Positions 27,656 to 32,327 of a DNA stretch of 49,190 nt are shown here, piece after piece. The stretch comes from Fibrobacter sp. (GTDB lineage Bacteria > Fibrobacterota > Fibrobacteria > Fibrobacterales > Fibrobacteraceae), in NCBI GenBank assembly GCA_024399015.1, contig JAKSIC010000024.1, positions 1 through 49,190 of the forward strand. Reading direction: 5' to 3'. Each line of letters starts with the position of its first letter. Positions within the stretch are counted from its first letter, which is position 1. The notes below the pieces were generated by a model that made no database searches, was not told the origin of the DNA, and saw only the letters and a program-made list of their open reading frames with translations. Made by a program: the position numbers and the translations under genes.

Positions 27656-27691
27656 AAGCTTCGGCTTACCGTCGCACTACGGCGTTAAAAA

Positions 27692-27721
27692 AGACTGGCT
27701 TTAAAGCCGGTCTTTTTTTTT
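27692..27721 (+). terminator. Terminator of the DUF1846 gene
   Basis: AGACTGGCTT (27692-27701) pairs with AAGCCGGTCT (27704-27713), one G-T pair, followed by a T run to 27721. Confidence 0.85.
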
Positions 27722-27750: not shown

Positions 27751-28476
27751 TTACTTCTTGGAAGATTTCGGCGGATGGGCAGCAATCTTCTTTACGCCCT
27801 TTGCCTTGTCTGCTGCCTTGGCAGCCTTTTCGGCTTCGAGAGCTTCCTTTTCAGCAGCTTCGAATGCAGCCTGCATGTCTTCAAGTGCGCCAACCGGATC
27901 TTCTTCGATGATTTCGGAAGCTTCATCGACCATTTCGGCGAATTCGTCGTACCAGTCTGCGAAGATTTCGATTTCGAGGTGGTCAACACCCGGAACAGTC
28001 AGACGGACGCCGCAGCTTTCGCCAACGCGGTCCATGAACTTAGCCATTTCCGGCTTCAGGAGGGTCAGGTCGAGACCGTCCAGGTCTTCCGGTTCCAGCC
28101 AGATGCCGTCTTCGTCATCTTCTTCAACCTTGGCCTTCTTGGACTTCTTGTCTTCCTTGCAACCGCACTTGCAGTCGTCACCGCAGCAGCAACAGCAGCT
28201 GGGATCTGCGCCGTTCATGGCGAGGTATTCTTCGTCATCGATGCCGCTGTCATAGTAGAATTCGTCGTCTTCGAGGTAGAGGGTTTCAACAAAGATGCTC
28301 TTTGCACCGAGGGACTTTGCTGCAACAATGAATTCCTTGAGGTCGCCACCGAAATAGCGGGTAGCTTCCACTTCTTCGTTCAAGGTCTGAACGGGGATGG
28401 GGAGGAGCTTCTGCTTGCTGATGTAAGCGCAGACTTCGTCATAGACGGACTTCTGAACCTTTGCGTTCTTTGCCAT
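27751..28476 (-). CDS. Uncharacterised acidic protein with an eight-cysteine cluster
   Basis: 241 residues, no signal peptide. An N-terminal part (about 1-90; VYDEVCAYISKQKLLPIPVQ) is followed by eight cysteines in thirteen residues (C94-C98, C102, C104, C106; DPSCCCCCGDDCKCGC), a Lys/Glu/Asp stretch, a second folded part (130-200, IWLEPEDLDGLDLTLLKPEM) and an Ala/Lys/Glu tail. The cluster is metallothionein-like in density, but its placement inside a larger acidic protein is unfamiliar. Metal binding is an inference. AAGGAG ribosome-binding site. Downstream of dapA across a heptad-repeat spacer. I do not recognise the family. Confidence 0.7.
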   Translation of the reverse strand: MAKNAKVQKSVYDEVCAYISKQKLLPIPVQTLNEEVEATRYFGGDLKEFIVAAKSLGAKSIFVETLYLEDDEFYYDSGIDDEEYLAMNGADPSCCCCCGDDCKCGCKEDKKSKKAKVEEDDEDGIWLEPEDLDGLDLTLLKPEMAKFMDRVGESCGVRLTVPGVDHLEIEIFADWYDEFAEMVDEASEIIEEDPVGALEDMQAAFEAAEKEALEAEKAAKAADKAKGVKKIAAHPPKSSKK

Positions 28477-28495
28477 GGTAAATCTCCTTGGAATA

Positions 28496-28634
28496 GTGGT
28501 TAGTATGCAGTGGTTAGTATGCAGTGGTTAGTAAACAGGAATTAGTATGTAGTGGTTTGTAAACAATGGTTAGTAAACAAGAATTGTGGGAGAAGATTTT
28601 CTCTATACCACTAACCACTAGCCACTAATCACTT
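28496..28634. repeat. Heptad-repeat inverted element between dapA and the Cys-cluster gene
   Basis: Thirteen in-phase 7-mers at 28496-28586, variants of GTGGTTA, GTATGCA and GTAAACA, and four complementary 7-mers at 28607-28634 (ACCACTA type) separated by about 20 bases. The right arm ends one base before the dapA stop codon; the left arm begins shortly before the ribosome-binding site of the downstream gene. The transcript could fold into an imperfect hairpin. Confidence 0.8.
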
Positions 28635-28635
28635 A

Positions 28636-29592
28636 TTAAACGTGATACTTCTTGAGGCTTTCTGCCTTTTCGTTGATGAGCTTCATGATGCGTTCAACGG
28701 CTTCTTCACCGCGGGCGGTGTCCTTGACGCTGGTCATGGGCTGGAACAACGGGCTGTTGAACAAGGTGCCCAAAGGAATGGGGTTCTTGCGGCAGAAGGT
28801 AATTTCGACGTAGTCGCGAGCTGCGGCCTGCAGATCCTTGGCCTTGGAAGCGTCGCCTGCTGCGTAAGCCTTGTACAGGTCAGAGAAAATCTTTGCTGCT
28901 TCCGGAATGTTGCCGGTTGCAGTGATGAGGCCCTGGCCACCCATTTCGAGCATGTCGATGAAGAAACCGTCTTCGCCGGAAAGAACTGCGAAGTCGTTGT
29001 TCTTGGTTTCCTTGATGACGCGGAGAGTGTCTTCGTGGAACTTTTCACCGATGCGGAAATCCACTGCCTGCTTAAGACCGATGATGTTCTTGTCCTGAGA
29101 CAGGGAGATGAGGGTGTCGGGGTGAACGTAGCTGGCGGTGCGGCCCGGAACGTTATAGATAATGATCTTGGCGCCAGTTTCTTCGCTCAAGGTCTTGAAA
29201 TGCTTTTCGATGCCTTCCTGGGACGGGTTGTTGTAGTAACCGGTCACGCAGAGCATGGGAACTTCAGCAATCTTCAGGATTTCCTGAATCATTTCCACAG
29301 ATTCACGGGTGCAGTTGGAACCTGCGCCTGCGATGACAGGAACGCGACCATCAACGTAGTCCAAGGTGAACTTGATGATGTCGAGGTGCTGTCTGTGAGT
29401 GACGGTTGCGCTCTGACCGGTGGTGCCAACCGGGAGAATGCCGGAGACGCCAGAGGCGATAAGGTCGTCAATCATCTTTTCCATCTTCTTGTAGTCGATG
29501 GAGTTGTTGAGGTTCTTGGGATCATCGTTCATCAGCGGGGTGAACAATGCGGGAAAAACACCAGTAAGTTGAGAAGCTTTAGTAATTTGCAT
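28636..29592 (-). CDS. dapA: 4-hydroxy-tetrahydrodipicolinate synthase
   Basis: Condenses pyruvate with aspartate semialdehyde in lysine and diaminopimelate synthesis. Schiff-base K174 (GLKQAV), Y146 with NVPGRT (R151), the Y119-Y120 region in TGYYNNPSQEG, and T57-T58 in the GTTG motif are present. Gln follows the GTTG motif where Glu is usual in E. coli. At 318 residues it is slightly longer than the common 292 because of extra N- and C-terminal residues. Other members of the DHDPS/NAL superfamily remain possible, but the active-site set favours DapA. Translation leader carries AAGG. Confidence 0.9.
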   Translation of the reverse strand: MQITKASQLTGVFPALFTPLMNDDPKNLNNSIDYKKMEKMIDDLIASGVSGILPVGTTGQSATVTHRQHLDIIKFTLDYVDGRVPVIAGAGSNCTRESVEMIQEILKIAEVPMLCVTGYYNNPSQEGIEKHFKTLSEETGAKIIIYNVPGRTASYVHPDTLISLSQDKNIIGLKQAVDFRIGEKFHEDTLRVIKETKNNDFAVLSGEDGFFIDMLEMGGQGLITATGNIPEAAKIFSDLYKAYAAGDASKAKDLQAAARDYVEITFCRKNPIPLGTLFNSPLFQPMTSVKDTARGEEAVERIMKLINEKAESLKKYHV

Positions 29593-31502: not shown

Positions 31503-32327
31503 ATGAGAAAATTACTCGCATTTCTTTTCCTGGCCTTTGCCGTAGTTTGCTCGGCCCAGACCTTGAAGCCTGAGTTCCAGGCTTTCTCTGGCGCCTTGCT
31601 CAAACTTAAGAAGGCTGACAAGGGATTCCATAAGTTCCAGCTTACCGTGGACGTGGCTCCGTGGGCTTTCCAGGCAACTGGTGAAGTCATGGCTCCCGGT
31701 GGTGACCCGGATCTTCTGATCACTGGTCTCTTCGACGGTGAACTCTATGCGGTTCTTGCGTACGTTCCGTCTACTGCAGCCGGCTCCGATGGTGAGGAAT
31801 ACCAGGTTGGCTTCTTCGACATGATGCTTTATTTCGAAGAAGAACCGACCCGCATTCGTAACCTGAAGTTCAAGCTGTTGCCTCCGGCAAACGACGAATG
31901 GGCCAAGGGCATCCTGAAGGACGCTTTGGAATCCGGCTCTCTCCTGGGTAACGTCTGGGGTGGCAAGTTCGAAAAGGACATTGCCCGTGCTTCTGCTAAC
32001 CCCATGGACAAGAGGAAGCTGGAAAATCTCCAGAAGAAGAAAAAGAAACTTCCTGAAGACGACGGCACCATTGCTCCTAAGAAGCGTCGCGTAGAGGCAG
32101 AAGAGGAACCTGTGGAAGAAGTCAAGTCCAAGAAGAAAAAGAAGAAGTCCGAAGACGAAGAAGAATCTTCTGTTTCCAAAAAGAAAAAGAAGAAGAAAGC
32201 CGTAGAAGAGGACGCTGAAGACGAAGCACCCAAGAAGAAGAAAAAGAAGAAAAAAAAACTTGAAGATCCGTGCGACGACCCTGATCTTTCCGCAAAGGAA
32301 AAGCGCCGTTGCAGGATGAACAAGTAA
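31503..32327 (+). CDS. Exported protein with lysine-block C-terminal tail, unknown function
   Basis: 274 residues. A signal peptide (MRKLLAFLFLAFAVVCSAQ) is followed by a folded part (about 20-165; GFHKFQLTVDVAPWAFQATG, YQVGFFDMMLYFEEEPTRIR) without a recognised family. From about 175 the tail alternates lysine blocks of 5-9 residues with Glu/Asp stretches and ends with two Cys (PCDDPDLSAKEKRRCRMNK). Such charge-block tails are common in cytosolic nucleic-acid-binding proteins but unusual behind a signal peptide. AGGAAG ribosome-binding site. 62 bases after pgm with no terminator visible, so probably co-transcribed. Confidence 0.75.
   Translation: MRKLLAFLFLAFAVVCSAQTLKPEFQAFSGALLKLKKADKGFHKFQLTVDVAPWAFQATGEVMAPGGDPDLLITGLFDGELYAVLAYVPSTAAGSDGEEYQVGFFDMMLYFEEEPTRIRNLKFKLLPPANDEWAKGILKDALESGSLLGNVWGGKFEKDIARASANPMDKRKLENLQKKKKKLPEDDGTIAPKKRRVEAEEEPVEEVKSKKKKKKSEDEEESSVSKKKKKKKAVEEDAEDEAPKKKKKKKKKLEDPCDDPDLSAKEKRRCRMNK

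Follow-up and report, generated by a model that had tools for sequence, protein, structure and literature searches.

The window (the whole 49,190-nucleotide stretch of Fibrobacter sp. DNA that was analysed) encodes a 241-residue protein with eight cysteines packed into thirteen residues. We infer, with somewhat better than even confidence, that it is a Fibrobacteraceae-specific dapA-operon protein whose metallothionein-like thiolate loop binds or buffers a soft metal. The gene and its surroundings comprise the following features.

27751..28476, minus strand: gene of the 241-residue protein (conserved halves and Cys-rich loop), an ORF with a Shine-Dalgarno sequence and orthologues.
28484..28489, minus strand: Shine-Dalgarno sequence AGGAGA, 7 nt before the ATG, read from the sequence.
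28249..28476, minus strand: residues 1-76, the N-terminal conserved half, modelled as alpha-beta-alpha-beta in homologue L106 (alignments A1/A2, AlphaFold2).
28093..28248, minus strand: variable loop, residues 77-128, with eight Cys (loop survey); its equivalent in L106 (77-100) is predicted to be disordered.
28159..28197, minus strand: CCCCCGDDCKCGC, C94-C106, with C98, C102 and C104 unchanged in all 20 Fibrobacter sequences aligned.
27802..28092, minus strand: C-terminal conserved half, residues 129-225, predicted alpha-beta-beta-alpha-alpha, holding C155 (alignment, AlphaFold2 model of L106).
28012..28014, minus strand: codon of C155, invariant in 42/42 family members, Cys-poor ones included (alignment A2).
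27751..27801, minus strand: basic C-terminal tail VKKIAAHPPK..., present in Fibrobacter and absent in the aligned sister genera.
28636..29592, minus strand: dapA, 4-hydroxy-tetrahydrodipicolinate synthase, the upstream operon partner (TIGR00674 and adjacency).
27687..27718, no strand assigned: symmetrical terminator hairpin between the 241-residue protein gene and a convergent DUF1846-like gene.

The ORF is a real gene, as shown by its Shine-Dalgarno sequence, the downstream terminator hairpin and the presence of a single orthologue in almost all genomes of the genus. Its translation confirmed the eight cysteines in thirteen residues that the first-pass annotation had pointed out. Other 13-residue stretches in window ORFs of at least 60 residues held at most five cysteines, and ORFs outside the family in 527 kb of related loci held at most six, spurious frames counted; the rank of the patch in cysteine density is an estimate from the window and these loci. 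Because no rival 13-mer in either set is as cysteine-dense, the patch is not a product of chance. It is nevertheless the most variable part of the protein and has no fixed motif.

When 167 genomes of the phylum were searched with a profile, the family turned up as single-copy orthologues in 75 of 80 Fibrobacter genomes and also in 15 genomes from six sister genera within the Fibrobacteraceae, with no relatives outside these groups. A broader profile returned the identical genome list plus marginal matches at E 0.08 or worse, and no family match was found on plasmids by tblastn. In the 99%-complete Fibrobacter genome G117, which lacks the gene, dapA runs to the contig end; true gene loss was therefore set aside there, and an assembly gap explains one or more of the five Fibrobacter genomes without a match. 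The earlier remark that no family could be recognised still holds, as Pfam, NCBIfam and PDB sequence searches with the protein were all without a match, and a literature search found no study of this dapA-adjacent Cys-loop protein.

The upstream neighbour in the window matched TIGR00674, the DapA equivalog, at 217.3 bits against a cut-off of 206.15. In all 59 loci with enough upstream sequence, the gene immediately preceding it on the same strand is dapA. These loci cover Fibrobacter and all but one of the six sister genera, the exception being g16, whose one locus in the set begins too near a contig end; the six loci without an upstream dapA end within 220 bp. The gap between the two genes is 8-180 bp, with a median of 19 bp, and across species it falls into two classes, 8-39 and 86-180 bp. 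The Cys-loop gene is thus probably co-transcribed with dapA, and because dapA is upstream across Fibrobacter and the sister genera, the operon link is as old as the known family.

The cysteine cluster had been described as lying between two parts with a charged linker, and our alignments do place it between two conserved halves. Both halves are largely invariant in alignment A1 (20 Fibrobacter sequences), and the loop between them varies by in-frame indels. Among 75 proteins, the loop is 34-74 residues long and contains 0-24 Cys, and the homologues are 187-254 residues in length. The Fibrobacter loops have 4-14 Cys, never fewer than four in all those examined, and only 4-6 in most species. All six sister genera include a protein with five or more loop Cys; the L112 loop reaches 24, and that of L098 contains a long (CD)n run. 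Within genus g12, L101 has seven, L102 has four and L103-L106 have 0-1. One sister clade (G155-G158) has 0-1 loop Cys and keeps both halves. In a family tree with long branches and no firm root, the labels Cys-rich (at least 8) and Cys-poor (at most 3) each required two changes or more.

These results bear on the first-pass annotation, which had named retention of the cluster in homologues as a check and homologues lacking the cysteines as evidence against metal binding. The cluster is retained in all examined Fibrobacter and in at least one member of each of the six sister genera; clade G155-G158 lacks it, with the halves kept. Neither the dapA operon linkage nor the hypervariable cysteine number, both found here, was part of that annotation, and we regard its interpretation as partly supported. 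Because the G155-G158 proteins keep both halves with 0-1 loop Cys, the Cys-free fold has a role of its own, and metal binding cannot be the whole function.

The composition of the loop is consistent with thiophilic metal binding, being rich in CxC and free of His. Cysteine makes up 13% of the loop and 1.3% of the rest of the protein, an enrichment of about ten times, and no His occurs in 68 distinct loops. When residues were shuffled within the Cys-rich segment, C-x-C was enriched (216 observed versus 140 in shuffles, z 10.5), C-x5-C and C-x3-C were enriched less, and both C-x2-C (z -9.5) and CC were depleted. A ferredoxin, rubredoxin or zinc-ribbon type site was set aside on the C-x2-C depletion. 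C98, C102 and C104 are invariant amid variable neighbours in alignment A1, and in alignment A2 the corresponding positions are Cys in 32/35, 37/42 and 39/41 rows; the C-terminal half contributes C155, which is conserved in every one of the 42 diverse members of A2. In 85 gap-free loop pairs, which are related to each other and so give supporting evidence only, the residue changed in 13% of comparisons at Cys codons versus 22-40% at codons for Gly, Asp, Glu, Ser, Asn and Ala. At 16%, Lys is about as conserved as Cys, which makes this a modest test.

AlphaFold2 prediction for L106, a Cys-free homologue, with 42 diverse rows gave a mean pLDDT of 80.8 and a pTM of 0.72. In this model, the two halves are predicted to fold as one alpha/beta unit, and loop residues 77-100 are below pLDDT 50. 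The window protein with 20 close relatives reached a pLDDT of 43.7, and this poor model was left out of the fold searches; loop disorder in the window species is extrapolated from L106. Searches with the L106 model gave weak matches, none convincing (best Foldseek E 0.32, best VIA-align Z 3.5).

We propose a cytosolic protein, specific to the Fibrobacteraceae, in which the two conserved halves would form a single alpha/beta unit. The exposed, disordered loop between them would carry a thiolate cluster of CxC units spaced by Gly, Lys, Asp or Glu, and, by analogy with metallothioneins, most likely binds more than one soft metal ion, such as Zn(II), Cu(I) or Cd(II). It may buffer metal or, like the variable tail of SlyD, couple metal/thiol status to the core. 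Since its length and cysteine number change fast through in-frame indels, its capacity would be tuned per lineage, and the loop would be dispensable in one clade. The CxC density, the lack of His, the predicted exposure of a disordered loop and the lack of a classical metallothionein in 61 family genomes all fit this reading. PF02069, the classical bacterial metallothionein, was found in 0/61 Fibrobacteraceae genomes searched, the window's own included, and a Synechococcus control was positive; its absence from these genomes leaves the niche for a metal buffer open. Against the proposal, no metal gene lies next to it, dapA being the constant neighbour, and one clade has intact halves with next to no loop Cys. 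In addition, the 4-6 loop Cys of most Fibrobacter are enough for one or two metals and would make a poor store.

Among the closest known systems, SlyD is similar in having a folded cytosolic core and an unstructured metal-ligand-rich segment that varies by species and is missing in some (PMC7055735). The SlyD tail is rich in His/Cys/Asp/Glu, varies among SlyDs and is absent in Thermus (PMC7055735). The segment studied here is likewise variable (0-24 loop Cys) and predicted to be disordered (L106 loop below pLDDT 50). However, it is an internal loop with Cys only and no His, the protein is linked to dapA rather than hydrogenase, and no Pfam or NCBIfam match to an FKBP model was found in it. The bacterial metallothioneins BmtA/SmtA/PmtA/MymT have dense Cys with CxC and CC units in variable number and arrangement (PMC12193353). 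The Cys-loop protein shares this density and these units (8/13 in the patch, CxC z 10.5), although CxxC, also typical of metallothioneins, is depleted. Whereas SmtA (56 residues) and PmtA (70 residues) are stand-alone proteins, the cluster here is an insert in a protein of 187-254 residues with conserved non-Cys halves, well above the 10 kDa or so of a small stand-alone Cys-rich protein. It is also His-free, unlike bacterial metallothioneins, which nearly always contain His. Pfam scans of the window protein and its Cys-rich homologues gave no match to PF02069, and no other metallothionein profile or PDB sequence matched them. The protein therefore belongs neither to SlyD nor to a metallothionein family. 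The C-terminal extension of plant HMA4 is described as having di-Cys motifs and binding zinc (PMC6255694). HMA4 is similar in that its Cys motifs extend a larger protein, but the extension is the tail of a membrane P1B-ATPase, and the host protein here is unrelated.

The strongest alternative, which we consider possible but unlikely, is that the core binds or regulates DapA, and hence the supply of lysine and peptidoglycan precursors, with the loop controlling it by sensing metal/thiol state. This alternative partly coincides with the preferred metal-loop reading, which leaves the role of the core open, and it accounts for the same-strand adjacency at all 59 loci and the short median gap. However, the adjacency may reflect shared expression only. 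The gene-less genera (g8, g9, g10 and g14) still have dapA, and a search for a hidden homologue behind it, there and in other families, found unrelated genes wherever the downstream genes were recognised. Moreover, the dapA alleles appear to have been replaced independently of their neighbour. Within Fibrobacter, their identity to the window's dapA falls into two classes, about 77-79% and 89-98%; L110, from another genus, has a dapA about 96% identical and a Cys-loop protein only 58% identical, and the dapA of L116, from another family, is 84% identical. This pattern suggests allele replacement or transfer. We consider it quite improbable that a metallothionein-like loop of fast-changing cysteine number in a DapA-partnering core lets metal/thiol status tune lysine and cell-wall precursor synthesis in these anaerobic fibre degraders.

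The CxC and CC dithiols and the invariant C155 in the core would also suit a redox device, in which, in a strictly anaerobic organism, disulfides formed between vicinal thiols on oxygen exposure switch the core or DapA, or protect one of them. This appears improbable, as up to 24 Cys with repeated CD units far exceed the need of a switch, their number is not conserved, and CxxC, the usual thioredoxin-type spacing, is depleted. Equally hard to credit is just one structural site, for a metal or an Fe-S cluster, formed by C98, C102, C104 and another Cys, with the remaining Cys as repeat-slippage decoration. The three positions do stay fixed in 20 Fibrobacter sequences as other Cys come and go, and most species have only 4-6 loop Cys, but the site is missing from the Cys-poor clade, which has kept the fold residues, C-x2-C spacing is depleted, and the loop is predicted to be disordered. 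A neutral linker of functionless C/D/G/K tracts, arising by codon-repeat slippage, would account for the range of loop lengths, for repeat expansions such as (CD)n in L098 and for the Cys loss in one clade, but is quite improbable given at least four Cys in all examined Fibrobacter, the invariant Cys columns, the tenfold Cys enrichment and the synonymous mixing inside the repeats. Because the CD repeats mix TGC with TGT and GAC with GAT, they appear to be old, with synonymous drift, rather than fresh slippage copies.

If the metal-binding reading is correct, a dapA-operon protein would provide the Fibrobacteraceae with a built-in thiolate metal buffer, in a family where the search revealed no classical bacterial metallothionein. 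Major rumen cellulose degraders belong to this family. The natural homologues, with 0 to 24 loop Cys on one conserved core, provide a ready series for relating cysteine number to metal capacity, and they suit the study of how a metal-binding module grows or disappears through in-frame repeat change.

Two further observations concern the surroundings of the gene. A lysine-rich, low-complexity protein with a signal-peptide-like start is encoded at 31503-32327 on the plus strand; it had no NCBIfam match and is conserved next to a phosphoglucomutase-like gene in many related loci. The gap separating dapA from the Cys-loop gene, at 28477-28640, holds a dispersed intergenic repeat with units like AGTGGTTAGTA and ACTAACCACTAGCCACTAATCACT, which has about 26 partial matches elsewhere in the genome.
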